Shown here: piece after piece, positions 49,591 through 60,837 of the stretch | Layout of the letters: every line of letters starts with the position of its first letter | Numbering within the stretch: the first letter of the stretch is position 1 | Program-made: the position numbers and the translations under genes | NCBI GenBank assembly: GCA_947500525.1 | Contig: CANMSH010000006.1 | Coordinates: 124,001-188,000 of the forward strand | From: an uncultured Flavobacteriaceae bacterium | GTDB taxonomy: Bacteria > Bacteroidota > Bacteroidia > Flavobacteriales > Flavobacteriaceae | Direction of reading: 5' to 3' | Length of the DNA stretch: 64,000 nucleotides | Notes under the pieces: generated by a model | The model's input: the letters and a program-made list of their open reading frames with translations, nothing else | Database searches by the model: none | Told to the model about the DNA's origin: nothing

Positions 49591-50721
49591 TTATCCCAAT
49601 ACCGAACTCAAGGTAAACATAGGTAGATACATTGCAATGAGTATAATTGCAACAAAAGCACCAAGAAATACAATTATTAAGGGTTCTAATACCGTACTCA
49701 ACATTTTAGATTTATACTGTATTTCTTCATTATACTGGGTGGTCAAGCGTTCAAAAATAAATTCATTTTGATTGGTCTCTTCGGCCACTTTTAATAAAGA
49801 AATCATCTTGTTGTCGAACACTTTGTGAGGTTTTAGGCTTTCACTCAAATTATCTCCAGATAGTATTCTTGATTCGGCGTCGGTCAATGCCACTTGTAAC
49901 GGATGAAAATCGATCATTTTATTGGTTAATTTAATACTATTTAGCACAGGCACTTTGGCTGTTGTCAACAAAGCTACTGCCTGCGTAAATTGACCTATAT
50001 ACATCTTTCGCATTAACTCACCAACAAATGGTATTCTTAGCAAAAATTTGGCACTGTATTTTTTATACCATACTTTTTTCGAGACTATCTTTCTAACAAC
50101 AAATAGGGCGACTATTCCGATTGCAAAACTCCAAAAATACTCTTGAAACAAATTAGATGCTTTGACCACCATCTTCGTCAACCATGGTAATTCTACTTGA
50201 TTTTGTTTAAAAATATCGGCAAACATCGGCACCACATATCGTAGCATAAACAATACTGCTAAGGTTGCTGTGGTTAATACAACAATAGGATATGATAGTG
50301 CATTTAAAACTGTTCGGCGTTGCTCATTTTTTCTTCTAAAAAACAAACCCAATTCTTTTATTACTTTTTGTAAAGACCCTGTCTCTTCTCCAATCTTTAA
50401 AGAATAATATTCATACTCTGAAAAGTCTTTCACATTTTCTATACTATTGGATAGGCTTTTACCTGCAACTAAATCATTTACCATAGTGCCAAGCAATAGC
50501 TTGTCTTTCTCTTTCTTTTGTTCTTCTAATAATAGATTTAAACTCTCCTTTAGACTAATTCCGGCACTTAATAACACACTTAACTCTGTGTAAAAAGCTT
50601 CTTTTTTCTTGTTTGAAAATGAGTTTCCAAACAACGAAATTTCAGTTTTTAACAAAGCATCAAGATCAAAATTTGATGTTGATTTTTCTCTTGGTTTTAC
50701 CTTATCTAATTTAAAAGCCAT
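49591..50721 (-). CDS. GspF/PilC-type inner-membrane platform protein
   Basis: A 376-residue protein of the type II secretion/type IV pilus platform family, with two T2SSF domains (about 40-160 and 240-370) and three membrane helices (about 140-160, 195-212 and 345-367). The second domain ends VLEPLIIVFLGAFVAIIL as in GspF. It is the last gene of a pseudopilus operon and overlaps nothing. No GspE-type ATPase or GspD secretin gene is present in this window. Confidence 0.92.
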   Translation of the reverse strand: MAFKLDKVKPREKSTSNFDLDALLKTEISLFGNSFSNKKKEAFYTELSVLLSAGISLKESLNLLLEEQKKEKDKLLLGTMVNDLVAGKSLSNSIENVKDFSEYEYYSLKIGEETGSLQKVIKELGLFFRRKNEQRRTVLNALSYPIVVLTTATLAVLFMLRYVVPMFADIFKQNQVELPWLTKMVVKASNLFQEYFWSFAIGIVALFVVRKIVSKKVWYKKYSAKFLLRIPFVGELMRKMYIGQFTQAVALLTTAKVPVLNSIKLTNKMIDFHPLQVALTDAESRILSGDNLSESLKPHKVFDNKMISLLKVAEETNQNEFIFERLTTQYNEEIQYKSKMLSTVLEPLIIVFLGAFVAIILIAMYLPMFTLSSVLG

Positions 50722-50723
50722 TC

Positions 50724-51179
50724 TTAATTCATATAATGCGTAGCATCATTCTTTTTGAAAACAAACAATTTTTTATTTTTTATCTCTTTAGACAATTGAA
50801 GCTCCAAAGCATCAAAAGCACCTGAGGTCACTTCGATACCATCTAGGAAAATCTTCTTCTTAATTACAGTAGTTCTAATGGTATCTATATTTCTTACAAT
50901 ATACTCATTTCGGAAATGATACACCACTGTATCTATTTCTGACGTACCCAAAATACGCTCGTTATTGTTATCATAAGTTAGGTTAAACTTATTAAAATCT
51001 CCCCATAAAGTTCGTTCTAACAAACGAATTTCGGTATCGGTATTATATATGTTTTGTACGTTTCTTATTTGGCCTTGAACCAAGCCCAACACTAAGATGG
51101 TAATTGTTATAATAATTCCCGAAATTACCAAAACAACTAACATCTCAGAGAGTGTAAATGCCTTTATTTTTTTATTCAC
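50724..51179 (-). CDS. Prepilin-like protein (GspJ/GspH position)
   Basis: About 151 residues if it starts at the GTG at 51179 (VNKKIKAFTLSEMLVV), which leaves the short basic leader and the hydrophobic helix with Glu5 that prepilin peptidase recognises (KA/FTLSE). An ATG at 51248 would overlap the upstream gene by 77 bp and is less likely. With the GTG start it overlaps the upstream stop by 8 bp. The rest is a short globular domain. It probably forms part of a pseudopilus rather than a long pilus. Confidence 0.8.
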   Translation of the reverse strand: MNKKIKAFTLSEMLVVLVISGIIITITILVLGLVQGQIRNVQNIYNTDTEIRLLERTLWGDFNKFNLTYDNNNERILGTSEIDTVVYHFRNEYIVRNIDTIRTTVIKKKIFLDGIEVTSGAFDALELQLSKEIKNKKLFVFKKNDATHYMN

Positions 51180-51513
51180 CTGCACTATATTCAAGCTTTT
51201 GTGAAATACTTTTTTTTGTTTCTTTCTTAGTTGCTTCAAGGAGTACAAATGATACTTCTCTCTCTGTTTGTTGCCTCAATTGTATGTTCCAATTTTCAAA
51301 ATCTTCTTGATACGGATATTTAATTTTGCTATTTATATACAAATAGTGAAGCTCATTCATTCTGTTTTGAACTCGACTGGTATTATTTTTTACTGATGAT
51401 TCAAAAACGTTGTTCAAGGTTAATGAAGCTATGGTAAAAATAATGATAATGATGACCGAAGCTACCAAACTTTCAATCAAAGTGGCACCTTTCACTTTTT
51501 TACATTTCTTCAT
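51172..51513 (-). CDS. Prepilin-like protein (GspI/PilV type)
   Basis: About 113 residues from the ATG at 51513. The leader MKKCKKVKG is cut before ATLIESL, followed by the hydrophobic helix, as in type IV prepilins (G/ATLIES with Glu5). A longer ORF start at 51552 adds residues that do not fit the leader. It lies between the PilX-like gene (26-bp gap) and the next prepilin gene (8-bp overlap). The small globular part is lysine-rich and unassigned. Confidence 0.8.
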   Translation of the reverse strand: MKKCKKVKGATLIESLVASVIIIIIFTIASLTLNNVFESSVKNNTSRVQNRMNELHYLYINSKIKYPYQEDFENWNIQLRQQTEREVSFVLLEATKKETKKSISQKLEYSAGE

Positions 51514-51539
51514 CAAAAAGAATTTGCGCAAAACCTGTA

Positions 51540-52817
51540 TTAATATAGCCATTTCGCAATATTTTTAGTGTTCTTTTCAAATAGCAATCCACTGTATTGA
51601 ATTGGAAAATCAGCGCTCAAAATTTTACCATTATACACATGGTTTTGATAAATAGAACCGAACTGATTCGCAATAAATCCTTTGGTGAAAACACTACCAA
51701 TAACAGTACCTTTCAACTCAACATTACCTTTGCAATATACTTCTCCGGTTACAAAAGCACTTTCTTCTAATACAATTTGAGGTTTATAGTTGTTCCTTTT
51801 GCTATCGGATAGATACGCAACCACTCCTTCTATTTTCGCACCAGCTTGAACTTCAACCTTACTAAATACATCATTTCTAGTATTCGGAGTTACCTCAGTA
51901 TTAACTTCTTTATCATATACCGTTAATGAACTTGGGTATATGAGTTTGCAATTTTTCCCAATTATAATTTCATCCGACGCAAATGCTTGAAAACTACCCT
52001 CAAAACCACTCACAATGTTAATTTTTGGAGCAACCAAAATGACATCTTTAAGTATGGCATCATCATATACAGTAATTCTTGTGTTCGATTTTATGATAAT
52101 GTTACCTATGAGTTCAACAGATTTGAGATCAATAGATATATCGCTAAAAAAGGCTTGTGCAACTTCCCCAAATGAGTTTACAATTCGACTATCTTCTTTG
52201 AGTTCAAGCATAGTATTATTCTCAGATTGAATACTCCCTCTCGTTAGTTGTTTTAAATAGTGTCTATTTTCTAAAACAGGTAACTTATTTCTGCTAGGAC
52301 CTACAGATCCATAAACAAGTTGCGAACCAGCATACGCATTACCGGCAATAGTACCTCGTTTGACGCCTTGTTTTGGTAGTAAGGTCTTACCTTCAATACG
52401 GGTTGTTCCAACCAATACTAAGGGTTGATTATCATCTTGAAGATACAGCGCAGTCCGATCAGCGTTTAAACCACCCATTAATGCATGTTTAGTGACTGTT
52501 TCTTTTTTTATAGATGAAGTGGCCGAAATTAAATCGAAAATACCCCAGTTCTTTTTTAGGATCTTGGTATTCTCTAATTCATTATCTGAGAACCTTATAT
52601 TGGTAACTTCGTTGTAAGGCATTGTACTTGTTTGAGCATAATTAATGGCCAAGTTCGCTTGCTGAACAACTTTCGTGAAATTGGTCGCTTTGAGTTTAAA
52701 ATGTTGCTGGGTATAGCTTAATGAAATAAATGCGAAAACTAATAACGCAATCACCACAGCCACGAAAATCGTGTACTGTAAGGCTCCTGCTTTTACTTTT
52801 ATTGGTTTGATTTGCAT
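51540..52817 (-). CDS. PilX/GspK-position protein with beta-helix-like region
   Basis: A 425-residue protein with a short basic leader and an N-terminal hydrophobic helix (GALQYTIFVAVVIALLVFAF) resembling a minor pseudopilin such as PilX or GspK. The later two-thirds contains repeated short strands (LELKEDSRI.., VELKGTVIG...) suggestive of a right-handed beta-helix or bactofilin-like fold. It shares an operon with GspF and two prepilins. The exact role is not known. Confidence 0.75.
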   Translation of the reverse strand: MQIKPIKVKAGALQYTIFVAVVIALLVFAFISLSYTQQHFKLKATNFTKVVQQANLAINYAQTSTMPYNEVTNIRFSDNELENTKILKKNWGIFDLISATSSIKKETVTKHALMGGLNADRTALYLQDDNQPLVLVGTTRIEGKTLLPKQGVKRGTIAGNAYAGSQLVYGSVGPSRNKLPVLENRHYLKQLTRGSIQSENNTMLELKEDSRIVNSFGEVAQAFFSDISIDLKSVELIGNIIIKSNTRITVYDDAILKDVILVAPKINIVSGFEGSFQAFASDEIIIGKNCKLIYPSSLTVYDKEVNTEVTPNTRNDVFSKVEVQAGAKIEGVVAYLSDSKRNNYKPQIVLEESAFVTGEVYCKGNVELKGTVIGSVFTKGFIANQFGSIYQNHVYNGKILSADFPIQYSGLLFEKNTKNIAKWLY

Positions 52818-53413: not shown

Positions 53414-53450
53414 AGATTGCTTCTCCCGAGTGCTCGGGATCGCAATGACG
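53414..53450 (+). repeat. REP-like palindromic repeat (family I), unit 1
   Basis: A palindrome GATTGCTTCT-CCCGAG-TG-CTCGGG-ATCGCAATGAC. The inner CCCGAG/CTCGGG stem and the outer ATTGC/GCAAT stem can both form. The same unit recurs in the next 1.5 kb, with the central pair TG replaced by AATACT-type variants. Confidence 0.8.
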
Positions 53451-54121: not shown

Positions 54122-54160
54122 TAGGTAAATGTAAGGAAAAGGGTTGGGTTTTACAATGAC
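54122..54160 (-). promoter_or_regulatory. Duplicated promoter cassette, copy 1
   Basis: 39 bp that is 36/39 identical to 55684-55722, and equally placed (14 and 15 bp before the start codon). On the minus strand it includes TTG, a 20-base spacer and TACATTTA, a near-consensus Bacteroidota promoter. Its far end carries a CAATGA block shared with the REP-like repeat. Confidence 0.6.
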
Positions 54161-54200
54161 TGCAACGTGATAATCCATTTAAATACTGGACTCGTTTGGA

Positions 54201-54320
54201 AGATTGCTTCACTATGTTCGTAATGACCAAACAACACCTCATTACGAGGAGTGGAACGACAAAGCAATCCGTTTATCTTTAGATAGATTGCTTCTCCCGA
54301 ATACTCGGGATCGCAATGAC
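54201..54320 (+). repeat. REP-like composite repeat (family I), unit 2
   Basis: A ~120-bp composite with a left arm GATTGCTTCACTATGTTCGTAATGAC, a middle arm (from CATTACGAGGAG to CAAAGCAATCC) that is roughly the reverse complement of the left, and the CCCGAATACTCGGG palindrome ending in GCAATGAC. The next unit has the same order, so they look like tandem copies. Confidence 0.8.
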
Positions 54321-54361
54321 TGTAATCAGACATGCTATTTAATTAACGCTTTCATTTGTCA

Positions 54362-54472
54362 GTATGCTGTGCTATGTTCGCAACGACCAAGCAATACCTC
54401 ATTGCGAGGAGTGAAACGAGGAAGCAATCCGTTTATCATTAGACAGATTGCTTCGCTACGCTCGCAATGACG
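54362..54472 (+). repeat. REP-like composite repeat (family I), unit 3
   Basis: The same order as unit 2: a GTATGCTGTGCTATGTTCGC-type left arm, CATTGCGAGGAGTGAAACGAG, then GAAGCAATCC and GATTGCTTCGCTACGCTCGCAATGACG. It ends 14 bp before the GIY-YIG start codon, so the repeat could hold its promoter or a recognition site. Confidence 0.8.
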
Positions 54473-54486
54473 TTAAAAATTGAAAT

Positions 54487-54786
54487 GTGAAAAAATCTTT
54501 TATTTATTTCATGACCAACAAAAACAATACAGTAATTTATACTGGAGTGACAAGTGATATATTCAAAAGAGTGTATCAACACAAAACCAAATTCTATAAA
54601 GGTTTTAGTGCTCGCTATAATTGTGACAAACTGGTTTACTTTGAAGAGTTTAATAGCTTTAAATTAGCGATTGCAAGAGAAAAGCAATTAAAAGCAGGAA
54701 ACAGGAAACGAAAAGAAGATCTGATAAACTCGATGAATCCTGAGTGGAATGATCTTTCCGAAGATTGGTTGTTCGATTTTGAATGA
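54487..54786 (+). CDS. Single-domain GIY-YIG nuclease-like protein
   Basis: A 99-residue GIY-YIG protein starting at a GTG (54487). The two strand motifs are FIYFM and YTGVT (GIY..YIG equivalents). The next helix has the conserved arginine in KRVYQHK and the late motif REKQLKAGNRKRKEDLIN..NPEW is typical of the UPF0213-like clade. It is short and has no DNA-binding or repair partner. It is embedded in a cluster of REP-like repeats on both sides, 14 bp downstream of one and 3 bp upstream of another, so the gene and repeats may be a unit. Confidence 0.85.
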   Translation: MKKSFIYFMTNKNNTVIYTGVTSDIFKRVYQHKTKFYKGFSARYNCDKLVYFEEFNSFKLAIAREKQLKAGNRKRKEDLINSMNPEWNDLSEDWLFDFE

Positions 54787-54789
54787 ACC

Positions 54790-54823
54790 GATTGCTTCTC
54801 CCGAATACTCGGGATCGCAATTA
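54790..54823 (+). repeat. REP-like palindromic repeat (family I), unit 4
   Basis: GATTGCTTCT-CCCGAATACTCGGG-ATCGCAATTAC, the same palindrome as unit 2, beginning 3 bp after the GIY-YIG stop codon. It can also act as a terminator hairpin without a T-run. Confidence 0.8.
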
Positions 54824-54895
54824 CTGAATCGTTCGCCATTACGAAATTTTCAAAAAAAATTGAAGTAATCTGTTTTTTTGAAGTTCAGATCTGAC

Positions 54896-54944
54896 AGATT
54901 GCTTCCCCCTCCCGAATACTCGGAATCGGGGTCGCAATGTCGTT
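54896..54944 (+). repeat. REP-like palindromic repeat (family I), unit 5
   Basis: A longer variant of the unit (AGATTGCTTCCCCCTCCCGAATAC... GGGGTCGCAATGTCG). The centre is slightly expanded. It covers the stop codon region of the convergent lipoprotein gene (stop at 54943). Confidence 0.75.
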
Positions 54945-56499: not shown

Positions 56500-59400
56500 T
56501 TAATCAATATTGATATTAGGTCTAATCTCTGTTACTCTAAAAGATTGCTTCGTCCAAGTTGATCTGTCAAACAATGCGTCTTTTCTTAAATAAAATCTGT
56601 TTTGTGCAGTGTCCGTACCAGGAAACTTCGGAGTACTTACATTGTCCCAATATATAAAATAATTTCCATGTTTATCATGCCCTTGACCGACTATGTTTAC
56701 AAAATGCTTAGTCAGTTGATTTTTATTTGCCAGAGTTGAACCATAATCATAGTACACCCCCGTTTGTACTGAATGTCCTTTTAACAAGTTACTTCTTATA
56801 GTTCTAAGAGCCAATGGTACATCTGCTTTTAAATCCGAATCTGATAAAGTCCAGAGATTTATTTGACCGTTTTTATATGCAGGATTTCCTCCATTTTTCA
56901 CCTCTTGTTCTCTAGAACAAGCAAAACAATCATTCCCAGCACTACTTCCTCTATATTTAATCAATTTTTGACCTTCCAATACATTGTTAATGGTAAAAAA
57001 CAAATCCGGTCTTGCAGTACCATTTTTCTGTAAAACGTAATTTTGAAAATTATCAATAAAATTTCCTCCATCATAACTTTTGGATAAGCCAACAGCCCAA
57101 TTCCAATATTTCGCATCTATTTCAAGAACTTGATTCAATCCGTCATTAACGTAAACACTTTCTCCCGTTTCCTTATTTACATAATCAGTAAAAAAGGCTC
57201 CATCAGGATCAGTACCATTAATTGGGTTGTTTCCCATTCCGAGATATGGTGAACTATATTGTCCCGCCGGGTCAGTAGTTAGCCACCTTCCAATTCTAGC
57301 ATCCCATAAGCGTAATTCAAAGGCTTCTTTACCTGTCTCTTGGTCTTTTTCTTGCCCTTGAAAAGCATACCGATATTGCTCACCACCGATGGTTTGTCTT
57401 CCTGGCATGGCCATACCAAAAGGGTAATAATCCGTTGTTGTGCTTGGGTTGGGGTCCATTCTTTGTATAACTGCCCTTACGTTTCCTAAATGATCGACCA
57501 ATTGATAGTAATATGTATTTGTTTCCTTATAGTGCACACCTATTCGCTCAGCTCCATAAATCGGCAATTCTGTTAAGATATTATTTTTATAGACAGCCAA
57601 GGTATTACCGGTCGCATCTCGTATATAATGATCCGTACTTGTTAAGCTACCATTAATAAAACTTTCTTTACGCACTCTATAATCTTTATCATTGTAATAA
57701 AACTTGACTATTGGTTGATTATTATGTTGTACTTCTGTTACCAAGCCGCCCACACTATAAAAATATTTAATTCCTTCGCTAACATTTTCTACCAACTGCC
57801 CAATACTATTGTACTTATAATTATCTCCATCTTGATCACCTATATCGTTTGCACCCAATACGGTACCCGATAGATCATCTACTCTTTTCAATTGATTCGG
57901 TCTAAAATTATCCGGATCGCTAGGGTCGTCATAATACTCATATGTTAATTGATCCATAACATTTGACCCACTATTTTCTGTTTGCTTATTTCGGTTAAGC
58001 GTTTTAATATTTCCATTAGCGTCATAGGTGATATTGCTTACATTATAATCCCCTCCGTTTGCTCCTTGTGCATTGGGATCTATTTTAGCCGTAAATACAG
58101 TGCCTGTCTGCACATGAAAACCGGGTAGTAAGGTAATACTTTGTCTAGCTACTATATCTTCATTAGTTGTAATTACGGTATTTTTGATAATGGAATCTTG
58201 TGCAGTACCTGTACCTTCAATTGGCGCTCCCATACCAGCACTCTCTAACCAATTATTTTTATTATATCCATAGTAATAGGTTTGTGCCGTAGGTGTTGTA
58301 TTAGGATGCTTGTTAACCCAAGTCATTGCTTTGATATTACCATTAAACTGGTCTTTACCATCATTAACTGAACCTATTGGCGTTGGCGTACTAGAACGGG
58401 CATAATCACCATTATAATAATCCAAACGCATACTAAAAACATCTGTATTAAAACCATTGCTGGCAATACCATCATTTCCGGGGTCATTGTTCTGAGGATC
58501 ATTAATTGCCTTTAATTGCCCCGCTAAATTATATACAAAATCTATCCCCTGTAAATTATCTGCCAATTCTGTACGTCGTAATGCTCCATTTTCGTAGTAA
58601 TAATATTTAACTTGATTAATAAAAGTTTGTCCCCCGTCAGATGAAGTTATCACTTGTTCTAATTCATCAACGATATTGTAAATATATTTATGTATAAAGC
58701 GTTCATTTGGGACATACTTTTGATAGTCAACCTGTGTAACATTGCCTGTTATAGGATCATACACATAATCGATGGTTTTTATACCTAAACCTATAATGTT
58801 CTGTACCATCCATTCTACTCTACCATATGCATCATAACTATACCAAGTTATTGTATTTTCATTGTACGTCTTCGAAACGTTCCCAGCTACAAATCGTTGT
58901 TCAGGTGCGTCTCCCATAAACAAAGTCGCCATATCACTAGATAATGCATCGCTATCTTTTTCGTCATATAATGTAAATTGTTGTTCTTTACAGTTAGCAT
59001 TTGGTAAGTCATCCAAATCATTAACGTATTGTTCTTGGGTATAAGAGTTATTTATAATTCCGTCTAACGCATTGTTGTTTTCAGCATCAAAAGCATAAGT
59101 GTTATTTTCCGTAAATACACCACTTTCAACAGGTCGTCCGTAACTATCATAATTCGTATAAGAAAATTCATTGGCTATTGCTTGCTTCGAGTTCTGGGAA
59201 AAACGTATTTGTCCATCACTACGATATTTAAACCAAGCTTCTCCCTTATCAGGACTTTTACTATATACTAATTGATTCAATGAATTATACTTAAACTCAT
59301 TTTTCAAATTAAATAAGGCCTGGTAAGAAGCCAACAACCTCCCAGCATCATCATATTCGTATAAGTTATAATCATAGTAATTCTCTTTATAAGTTACCAT

Positions 59401-60837
59401 AACTGACTCTGTAGTGTAATTTTCGAGGTCATTTATTACTATTCTATAAAAACCATTGGGTAATGTGGAAGTATTACTTACAACTACCTGTTCGGTAATC
59501 AAATCATACACAGTAATGTCAGATGAGCTTACTACAAAGCCTTTGGCGTTCTCATTTTGCGGTACGTGAACATCAACATACCCTTGCTCCCCAATGGCTA
59601 TATTAGCAGTACGAACAATATCGCCCCCACTTCTAGCGACCGCCAATATCTTACCGTCAGTATCATTAAAAATCGCTGTCTCCACACCATGTACATCTCT
59701 ATTGATCGTTTTAACAGTTTCAATGGAATTATAAGCAGCGTTATCAAAAGCACCAACTTCTGATAATTCATTACTTGCTTGCATGTTAAATTCATAACCT
59801 TGTAACCACGTATCAAGAGTACCGTTACCGTCAACATCTACTTTATTTGCGCCTAAAGTTTTTAATATATTACCAGGATTCAATTTACTGTAAATGGTTC
59901 TTGTAAATGGGTAATCTGTTATATCCTGGTAACTGTTCCCTTCAAAACTGGAGTTGGTATTATTTGCACTGAAGTAATGTCCTAATGTGTTAATCCCTTT
60001 TCCTACTGGGGTAGGGTTTTCAGGATCGGATTCGAAATCAAATTCATTATATATCGAACCATCAATTTTCTTCACAAAATCCAATTTATATAAAAATGAT
60101 CCCGAGGCATTTATTGGAGCGCTTAAGGTCTGCAAAGCGGGCCTCCCTTGGGCATCGTACATCGTTTGAGTTGCCCAAGATTTATTAGTCTTTAAATCTA
60201 AACTCTGACTCTGAATACCACGTCCCAAATCATCAAAATATGATTTTGAGCTTGCCTTGATGGTACCATTAATATCATATCCTTTTGAAATAGTCCAATT
60301 CATATTTTCATATACATAACCATCATAACAACCATTATTATTTGCATTAGCGTCATACGTACAATAGTCTAAATTGTTGTTCACTCTTCCTGTTACGGCT
60401 GTACAACTAGAAACTGGATCGAAATCATTATAATTTCCATAACCATCTCCATCTGTATCCAAATACCAATTTTCATAACACCCTTCAGCTTGATTAATTT
60501 GAAAAAAGCCTAGATAGGCATTTGGGTTGCTATCATAAGCATAAGTTATTAACCCGTTCCTATCACCGTTCGTTGTATTTTCTTGGGTAGTAATTTGCAA
60601 TTGCAAAAGATTTATTTGAGTTATAGTTACCCATTCCGGCACTCCAGTAAAACAAATCGAGGAAGCACAATCATTTGAATTCGGTGAAAAACCCAAAGTA
60701 ATGGTTCTAGTTTCACCAGTGGCACTAAAAATACTAGGTGGAGGAATTGTAACTTGACAATTCGGCAATTGCCCCCATGAATTAACACTTATAAAACCAA
60801 TAATAAACAATACAATTCTAAATAAATTCTTTTTCAT
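56500..60837 (-). CDS. Exported RHS-repeat protein with papain/C39-like C-terminal toxin domain
   Basis: A 1445-residue exported protein (signal peptide ending SVNSWGQ). After a BACON-like segment (about 25-115) and a Ca-binding DTDGDGYGNYND stretch come DUF6443/RHS repeats (YD repeats, about 180-1110), with an LPGFxxxxGxxF block near 930. The RHS core domain runs 1115-1213 (DHLGNV.., RLWDARIGRWLTTDP, GTDPDG). The C-terminal ~230 residues differ from the core and look like a papain/C39-type cysteine protease: a CFAC pair (Cys1304 and Cys1307), HFVNIVGQG (His1378) and IYWDN (Asp1398/Asn1399). It lies 2 bp after the partner gene and ends at the lipoprotein gene. Confidence 0.85.
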   Translation of the reverse strand: MKKNLFRIVLFIIGFISVNSWGQLPNCQVTIPPPSIFSATGETRTITLGFSPNSNDCASSICFTGVPEWVTITQINLLQLQITTQENTTNGDRNGLITYAYDSNPNAYLGFFQINQAEGCYENWYLDTDGDGYGNYNDFDPVSSCTAVTGRVNNNLDYCTYDANANNNGCYDGYVYENMNWTISKGYDINGTIKASSKSYFDDLGRGIQSQSLDLKTNKSWATQTMYDAQGRPALQTLSAPINASGSFLYKLDFVKKIDGSIYNEFDFESDPENPTPVGKGINTLGHYFSANNTNSSFEGNSYQDITDYPFTRTIYSKLNPGNILKTLGANKVDVDGNGTLDTWLQGYEFNMQASNELSEVGAFDNAAYNSIETVKTINRDVHGVETAIFNDTDGKILAVARSGGDIVRTANIAIGEQGYVDVHVPQNENAKGFVVSSSDITVYDLITEQVVVSNTSTLPNGFYRIVINDLENYTTESVMVTYKENYYDYNLYEYDDAGRLLASYQALFNLKNEFKYNSLNQLVYSKSPDKGEAWFKYRSDGQIRFSQNSKQAIANEFSYTNYDSYGRPVESGVFTENNTYAFDAENNNALDGIINNSYTQEQYVNDLDDLPNANCKEQQFTLYDEKDSDALSSDMATLFMGDAPEQRFVAGNVSKTYNENTITWYSYDAYGRVEWMVQNIIGLGIKTIDYVYDPITGNVTQVDYQKYVPNERFIHKYIYNIVDELEQVITSSDGGQTFINQVKYYYYENGALRRTELADNLQGIDFVYNLAGQLKAINDPQNNDPGNDGIASNGFNTDVFSMRLDYYNGDYARSSTPTPIGSVNDGKDQFNGNIKAMTWVNKHPNTTPTAQTYYYGYNKNNWLESAGMGAPIEGTGTAQDSIIKNTVITTNEDIVARQSITLLPGFHVQTGTVFTAKIDPNAQGANGGDYNVSNITYDANGNIKTLNRNKQTENSGSNVMDQLTYEYYDDPSDPDNFRPNQLKRVDDLSGTVLGANDIGDQDGDNYKYNSIGQLVENVSEGIKYFYSVGGLVTEVQHNNQPIVKFYYNDKDYRVRKESFINGSLTSTDHYIRDATGNTLAVYKNNILTELPIYGAERIGVHYKETNTYYYQLVDHLGNVRAVIQRMDPNPSTTTDYYPFGMAMPGRQTIGGEQYRYAFQGQEKDQETGKEAFELRLWDARIGRWLTTDPAGQYSSPYLGMGNNPINGTDPDGAFFTDYVNKETGESVYVNDGLNQVLEIDAKYWNWAVGLSKSYDGGNFIDNFQNYVLQKNGTARPDLFFTINNVLEGQKLIKYRGSSAGNDCFACSREQEVKNGGNPAYKNGQINLWTLSDSDLKADVPLALRTIRSNLLKGHSVQTGVYYDYGSTLANKNQLTKHFVNIVGQGHDKHGNYFIYWDNVSTPKFPGTDTAQNRFYLRKDALFDRSTWTKQSFRVTEIRPNINID

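Follow-up and report, generated by a model that had tools for sequence, protein, structure and literature searches.

The GIY-YIG gene and the palindromes around it

The window, by which we mean the whole stretch of 64 000 nucleotides that was analysed, carries a standalone GIY-YIG nuclease gene on the plus strand at 54487–54786. The gene has a GTG start codon and encodes a protein of 99 amino acids that matches the Pfam GIY-YIG domain with an E value of 2.8e-15. The conserved Tyr, Arg and Glu of this domain, which we take to be the catalytic residues, are present, and Y7, Y18, G20, R28, H32, A61, E65 and K69 are invariant in an alignment of 31 sequences. An AlphaFold2 model of the protein has a mean pLDDT of 94.7. 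By sequence, the closest relatives of solved structure belong to UPF0213 (1zg2, E 4e-11; 1ywl, E 9e-9), followed by UvrC (1yd6, E 2e-4). By fold, a UPF0213 NMR model (Z 7.1) and Slx1 (Z 6.9) are tied as the nearest and the UvrC and I-TevI domains score 5.4, all values being below 8; GIY-YIG restriction enzymes are not among the entries listed in the structure re-alignment, which excludes nothing. By eye, pilus or secretion-like genes lie upstream (49591–52817) and a gene for an RHS-like protein of 1445 amino acids lies downstream (56500–60837).

About nine palindromes surround the gene, the nearest of them 14 bp before and 3 bp after it. The sequence-only reading that preceded this work had placed the gene inside an array of at least five palindromic units between 53414 and 54944 and had given these same two distances. 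The distances are correct, palindromes do stand on both sides of the gene and the number of units is exceeded. The upstream neighbour (54446–54472, minus strand) has a perfect ATTGC outer stem and a CGTC tag that faces the gene, unlike the outward tags that are usual at homologous loci. The downstream neighbour (54790–54824, minus strand), starting just past the stop codon, is a CGTC-type REP with the tag altered to AGTA and the tag end pointing away from the gene; it folds with −8.5 kcal/mol (z −4.1). Beyond it are a weak, degenerate inverted unit with one mismatch to the pattern (54835–54870, plus strand) and a unit with a nested inner palindrome and the tag altered to CGAC (54897–54942, minus strand).

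On the upstream side there are two units of opposite orientation with CCTC tags, one at 54397–54429 and one with an imperfect stem at 54237–54269 (both plus strand), together with a unit at 54202–54227 (minus strand) that has an imperfect outer stem. The unit at 54286–54320 (minus strand, fold z −4.2) contains the inner palindrome TCCCGAATACTCGGGA. An outlying unit at 53415–53450 (minus strand) sits between two minus-strand ORFs about 1 kb upstream of the gene. A decayed copy can be recognized by eye near 54362–54387. A composite unit of 141 nt is present in two copies, 54154–54294 and 54314–54454, which are 77% identical.

Read on the other strand, a unit takes the form C-GTC-ATTGC-GA-(inner part, mostly a palindrome)-GAA-GCAAT-CTG, with an unpaired CGTC-type tag at one end of the palindrome. 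The stem starts with AT; its outer part measures 5 bp and leads into an internal loop, beyond which four units have an inner stem. When folded as single-stranded DNA these four units are better than shuffled sequences (z −2.4 to −4.2), and another four are no better than shuffles (z −1.3 to +1.0). The loops of the folded units are of 4 nt and the tails of the strict units are CTG or CTA.

A similar plan is known. Di Nocera, De Gregorio and Rocco (2013; PMC3733652) described CGTC-tagged REPs with an unpaired CGTC tag, a stem of 8–9 bp starting with AT, a loop of 4–5 nt and a short CCA-like tail, gave TGTC and CCTC as tag variants and reported the class from five phyla, Bacteroidetes included. 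The window units share the CGTC/TGTC/CCTC tag and the AT-first stem. Many homologous loci have, in addition, loops of 4–5 nt (4 nt at L002 and L036) and a CCA-like tail (often CCA, CCG or CTN), and plain 8 bp stems are found at, for example, L002, L036 and L070. There is also an overlap of species with the parts of that paper available here, namely Novosphingobium aromaticivorans, Azospirillum lipoferum, Sinorhizobium (S.) meliloti and Neisseria (PMC3733652). The difference is that, where these have one stem of 8–9 bp, the window units have 5 bp of outer stem, then an internal loop and then an inner palindrome. Since the stem is not a plain 8–9 bp helix, we class the window repeat as a CGTC-type REP with an inner palindrome. 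Many dispersed copies are a trait of CGTC REPs; strict copies of the window stem type number three in its own genome, all at one locus and none dispersed.

That genome comprises 3.59 Mb in 33 contigs and is about 90% complete. The strict pattern GATTGCTTCN{4,30}CGCAATGAC has three matches in the 3.59 Mb, all of them at most 1.1 kb upstream of the GIY-YIG gene, and the reversed control pattern has none; the repeat is therefore not scattered evenly through the genome. Another rule, GTC followed by a perfect 5 bp stem with A first, describes only three of the window units and has 24 matches in the whole 64 kb, so that on its own it would not single out the GIY-YIG locus. The sequence-only reading had seen a GIY-YIG gene here and no RAYT, and the genome agrees: the Y1 HUH transposase domain (PF01797, Y1_Tnp) has no match at E ≤ 0.01 in the approximately 90% complete sequence, and a control search gave a match in six of 14 control genomes.

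Other stem types accompany two further GIY-YIG genes of the same genome. The ATTCCTGC stem occurs six times, three of them within 300 bp of gene L002, and an ATGCTG/ACCCTG-type pattern also occurs six times, with two of these copies framing gene L003 at distances of 18 and 11 bp.

Association of GIY-YIG genes with tagged palindromes

A homologue at E ≤ 1e-15 is present in 84 of 199 genomes of the family, at 145 places and with up to six GIY-YIG genes per genome. One place was dropped for an overlapping second hit in G157, and 144 were analysed. In a tag-blind scan, hairpins were counted according to the triplet adjoining them on the outside, near the genes (≤150 bp) and far from them (≥500 bp). 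GTC was the most enriched outside triplet at the 144 loci, by 7.3-, 11.6- and 28.5-fold for stems of 5, 6 and 8 bp; by raw count with 6 bp stems, TCA, GAT and AGA precede it. A rule that demanded a perfect 6 bp A-first stem missed the window repeats and was relaxed to 5 bp, with all triplets as the control. Next to the gene there are 0.49 hairpins per 50 bp, against 0.03–0.06 at 600 bp and a far mean of 0.03.

With 5 bp stems and a limit of 150 bp, a GTC hairpin lies on at least one side of 112 of the 144 GIY-YIG genes, compared with 44 of 124 control ORFs. On both sides the figures are 77 of 144 and 6 of 124 (Fisher p 9e-20). As controls we took computed ORFs, not checked genes, of 80 amino acids or more from the same loci, at least 450 bp from the GIY-YIG gene; the two-sided count was 78 in the triplet scan and 77 in the control-ORF scan, probably from a slightly different length limit, and 77 is used. 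In 125 of 177 cases the A-first repeat closest to the gene points its tag away from it; 32 of the 144 loci have no GTC hairpin within 150 bp in the 5 bp scan. Homologues of the gene are thus not usually found without the repeats.

The association extends well beyond the family. A global set was formed from the best 80 of at least 576 confirmed matches in one scan of GTDB genomes, and the titles of these best 80 range from Alphaproteobacteria to Parcubacteria, Omnitrophota, Sedimentisphaerales and Atribacteria. Among these best 80 of at least 576, GTC hairpins with 8 bp stems lie on both sides of 37 loci, against none of 223 control ORFs; with 5 bp stems the counts are 47 of 80 and 16 of 223. 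The one-sided background is high in both sets, with 96 of the 223 control ORFs of the global set scoring in the 5 bp scan next to the 44 of 124 in the family. Again for the best 80 of at least 576, 15 loci have no GTC hairpin within 150 bp (5 bp scan), and 33 lack two-sided hairpins with 6 bp stems and a 200 bp limit, among them S. meliloti 4H41 and Rhizobium sp. L51/94, where this search gave no hairpin at all; in 83 of 112 cases the tag closest to the gene points outward. With 8 bp stems GTC leads in enrichment in this set of the best 80 of at least 576 (54-fold); with 5 and 6 bp stems it is third or fourth, TCA and GGA being ahead. In our reading, this lead probably comes from the GTC palindromes themselves being counted in a shifted frame, one base in or from the tail side.

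Plasmid records give a similar picture. Twelve loci were chosen from 32 hits for taxonomic spread, before the flanks were seen, and span Alpha-, Beta- and Gammaproteobacteria, a cyanobacterium and Spirosoma. Nine of the 12 have a GTC hairpin on each side, at most 250 bp away. The loci without two-sided GTC hairpins are those of S. meliloti, where CCTC-like palindromes are visible by eye, Rhizobium tumorigenes and Photobacterium. On a Planktothrix plasmid (L073, 1184–2100) the cassette has the gene for an MmeI-like restriction enzyme on one side and drmA, of the DISARM system, on the other.

GIY-YIG genes are associated with CGTC-type repeats; of this we are almost certain. The sequence-only reading had taken gene and repeats for a nuclease–repeat unit distinct from RAYT. 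That idea is well supported, and what has to be given up is its local character, the association spanning many phyla.

Several candidates were set aside. The YhbQ/UPF0213-like gene L004 of the window's own genome was considered as a subfamily with another tag, its frame being TCCCGAGT(A/G)CTCGGGA with no GTC tag. This type occurs in six of 100 genomes, and no palindrome is common to the six loci. At L285 (1383–1825; G000:C3) CGTC-type REPs with two different stems frame a cold-shock-like gene; the notion that it hides a GIY-YIG gene was dropped, the profile finding none there, and a decayed GIY-YIG gene at G000:C4 is unsupported at a score of 0.7 bits. GIY-YIG genes also form clusters within 7 kb, four at G087:C1:1187326-1193552 and three at G174:C31:267294-274097.

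Stem types, protein types and alleles at the same site

One stem is common to both flanks at 53 of 72 family loci, where 9.5 were expected and the maximum in 2000 permutations was 20. Stem–protein matching was assessed on 163 of 224 loci, those with an A-first stem no more than 150 bp away; 61 loci were left out. The nearest protein relative has an equal stem at 75 of 105 family loci (18.8 expected) and, in the set drawn from the best 80 of at least 576 matches, at 45 of 58 global loci (22.7 expected). When those global loci (from the best 80 of at least 576) are matched to family loci, the stem is equal in 30 of 58 cases, with 10.3 expected and a maximum of 19. The matching is partly shared descent. 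Since it holds between the family and global sets, shared descent is unlikely to be its sole cause.

The four residues after the Glu tend to vary with the stem: AG[NS]R goes with ATTGC/ATTAC, KW[KN]R with ATTCC, RW[YP]R with ATCCT and NWHK with ATGCT/ACCCT. At the genome level, the window's repeat pattern is present in 14 of the 17 genomes that encode an AG-type protein, the type found in the window, compared with 21 of 67 that have only other types and 23 of 115 without a hit. One genome of the same genus (G119) has the repeat pattern and no GIY-YIG hit. Another genome, G016 (about 220 contigs, 91% complete), holds 28 matches to the window pattern and no GIY-YIG hit at E ≤ 1e-15.

The cassette is present or absent at the same place in related genomes. 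In Azospirillum lipoferum 4B the gene and at least three CGTC REPs lie between sufB and sufC (L070, 1363–1981). In eleven other Azospirillum records among the matches listed, both sides align with 81–82% coverage and there is no GIY-YIG hit; in the three that were fetched, sufC starts 87–129 bp past sufB. The A. lipoferum cassette splits a gene pair that stands close together in relatives. In Shinella, three records carry the cassette, H4-D48 has 116 bp in place of the 682 bp stretch with the gene and repeats, and S. zoogloeoides XJ20 lacks the whole spacer of about 1.2 kb. In Novosphingobium sp. ES2-1 the gene is absent between conserved neighbours and the spacer holds other sequence.

In Sphingobium the cassette lies in the interval from fnrL to a response-regulator gene. 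Seven records cover this stretch nearly in full, six of them being protein hits as well, and the cassette is absent from this position in four other fetched records. At the TomTYG64 site there is a single symmetric palindrome, CGTC-ACCCCGGG-TCAAG-CCCGGGGT-GACG. The TomMM7A cassette stands between two repeats whose outer halves, joined, make up this palindrome; in TomTYG74 the palindrome differs by two base changes. A symmetric solo palindrome in the unoccupied allele is compatible with the look expected of a homing target. Loss by recombination or deletion between the repeat arms would leave an equal solo palindrome. No target-site duplication was seen in these same-site comparisons, in which the spacers are otherwise diverged. 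For the window locus itself an empty site was sought in G119; the only match there is one REP match of 32 bp, so that no empty site can be read.

The gene is under selection, with a dN/dS of 0.07 between the window gene and L011 and of 0.13 between two Shinella copies, and it also decays, with in-frame stops in 17 of the 145 homologous places in the family genomes. This pattern fits a mobile gene, active in certain lineages and decaying in others.

We considered whether the gene might be a passenger, spread by homologous recombination among REPs that serve as recombination hot spots or safe intergenic landing sites, and not acting on them. REPs are found without a GIY-YIG gene, and the Sphingobium site holds other palindromes in some strains, both of which would agree with a passenger. 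However, two-sided framing is rare for the control ORFs, both in the family and, with 8 bp stems, for the best 80 of at least 576, and the stem type tracks the protein type within and between phyla as well as at the genome level, a match for which a passenger would have no reason. We judge this explanation improbable.

A second alternative, which we hold to be distinctly improbable, is that the hairpins serve to regulate the nuclease gene, as terminators or autoregulation operators, rather than its mobility, and that the protein serves in DNA repair. Repeats do lie within tens of base pairs of both gene ends at many loci, and an autoregulator would also be expected to co-vary with its sites. 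The available parts of the 2006 GIY-YIG survey describe the Slx1 family as mostly inherited vertically and its prokaryotic members as predicted repair enzymes (PMC1564403), to which the Slx1-like fold of the window protein adds weight. The likeness to UPF0213 and the prokaryotic Slx1-like proteins (1zg2, 1ywl, Slx1–Slx4, E. coli YhbQ) is that of a minimal one-domain GIY-YIG fold. In contrast to the vertical inheritance of that family, the genes studied here are multicopy, present or absent among relatives and framed by repeats. The absence of the cassette at matching sites, the disabled copies, the multiple genes per genome and the solo repeat copies elsewhere all speak against regulation. So does a search of six L004-type loci, E. 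coli YhbQ among them, in which no GTC hairpin with a 7 bp stem starting with A lies within 150 bp, although one of the six, L295, has GTC before a T-first stem.

A nuclease with probable cognate repeats: proposed mechanism and meaning

We regard it as fairly likely that the locus is a member of a widespread mobile cassette, in which a minimal Slx1-like GIY-YIG nuclease gene is bounded by its cognate CGTC REPs and spreads in a homing-like manner. That the GIY-YIG protein acts on the repeats is likely, and we infer that the nuclease cuts at the repeat. The homing-like route is put forward tentatively, at somewhat less than an even chance.

Free-standing GIY-YIG homing endonucleases of the I-TevI type are present or absent at a fixed site and spread by cutting and repair. 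The cassette resembles them in having a nuclease gene that is present or absent at a fixed site and in the cut-and-repair spread proposed for it. It differs in that the protein has 99 amino acids without a separate DNA-binding domain and in that the sites are dispersed palindromes and not one conserved gene.

In the mechanism that we propose, the repeat would take the form of a hairpin or cruciform, and the nuclease, reading both the stem and the unpaired CGTC tag, would recognize the repeat as its own and nick or cut it. The break would be repaired from another copy of the repeat, and the repair would copy repeats, and sometimes the whole cassette, into new palindromes. The result would be a homing-like spread between palindromes, with hydrolysis and repair in the role ascribed to the RAYT transposases for GTAG REPs. 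GIY-YIG enzymes are not known to carry out strand joining. Slx1–Slx4 processes branched DNA, as the titles of structure entries state. An extruded palindrome on a replicating strand is a branched structure, and for this reason we favour stem- and tag-selective cutting of extruded REPs.

In more general form, the proposal is that standalone GIY-YIG nucleases are the dedicated mobilizers of CGTC REPs in many phyla, forming a class of minimal mobile elements with a nuclease of about 95 residues and tagged palindromes as the components and structure-selective hairpin cleavage and homing-like repair as the means. The residues that follow the catalytic Glu would hold the code by which a stem is recognized. 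We give this an even chance of being right.

We class the pairing as a repeat with its partner enzyme, as in the REP–RAYT (TnpA–REP) systems, with an unrelated enzyme in the partner's place. In both cases a gene lies between palindromes with an unpaired tetranucleotide tag, solo copies exist elsewhere and the type of repeat is paired with the type of enzyme. The enzyme here, however, is a GIY-YIG protein without an HUH domain, and the tag is CGTC-type and not GTAG. It is very unlikely that the REPs are mobilized by another enzyme, a RAYT or other transposase, with the GIY-YIG gene as a domesticated derivative or cargo: Bacteroidetes do have TnpA–REP subclasses (PMC6006769, in part) and RAYTs have been hypothesized to move GTAG REPs (PMC3733652, in part), but Y1_Tnp has no match at E ≤ 0.01 in the approximately 90% complete genome of the window, and the available sections of the CGTC REP paper state that tyrosine transposase genes are never flanked by CGTC repeats and that associations with other transposases are few and fortuitous (PMC3733652).

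The CGTC palindromes are widespread in bacteria, and in the sections available their describers found a dedicated transposase apparently lacking, named no partner enzyme and left open which enzyme, if any, spreads them; the term GIY-YIG does not occur in these sections (PMC3733652). Across the available parts of the 2018 TnpA–REP survey (PMC6006769) and the 2025 RepRanger paper (PMC12306157) the string CGTC occurs once, in a reference list. In the open-access literature, preprints not included, we found no paper that, judged by its title, the opening of its abstract and counts of terms, connects REPs of the CGTC or any other kind to GIY-YIG genes, though one may have appeared elsewhere. Both the repeats and the protein fold have been described before; their pairing is, to our knowledge, new.

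The association names a small candidate enzyme for the spread of CGTC REPs, predicts pairs of proteins and stems and supplies natural pairs of present and absent alleles. If the reading of a mobile cassette is true, unrelated nucleases gave rise to palindrome-spreading systems on two or more occasions, and a group of genes that has been read as repair enzymes is largely mobile.

A minor observation concerns the inner palindromes of the window. Those of the units at 53415–53449, 54286–54320 and 54790–54824, TCCCGAGTGCTCGGGA and TCCCGAATACTCGGGA, are identical or similar to the palindromes that flank L004. Palindromes may insert into the loops of other palindromes. Two Kordia loci, L265 and L269, can be compared upstream of the GIY-YIG gene: the loop of the ATTCCTGC REP is longer in Kordia periserrulae by a palindromic stretch of about 23 nt, and the corresponding REP of Kordia sp. 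TARA_039_SRF is without it.
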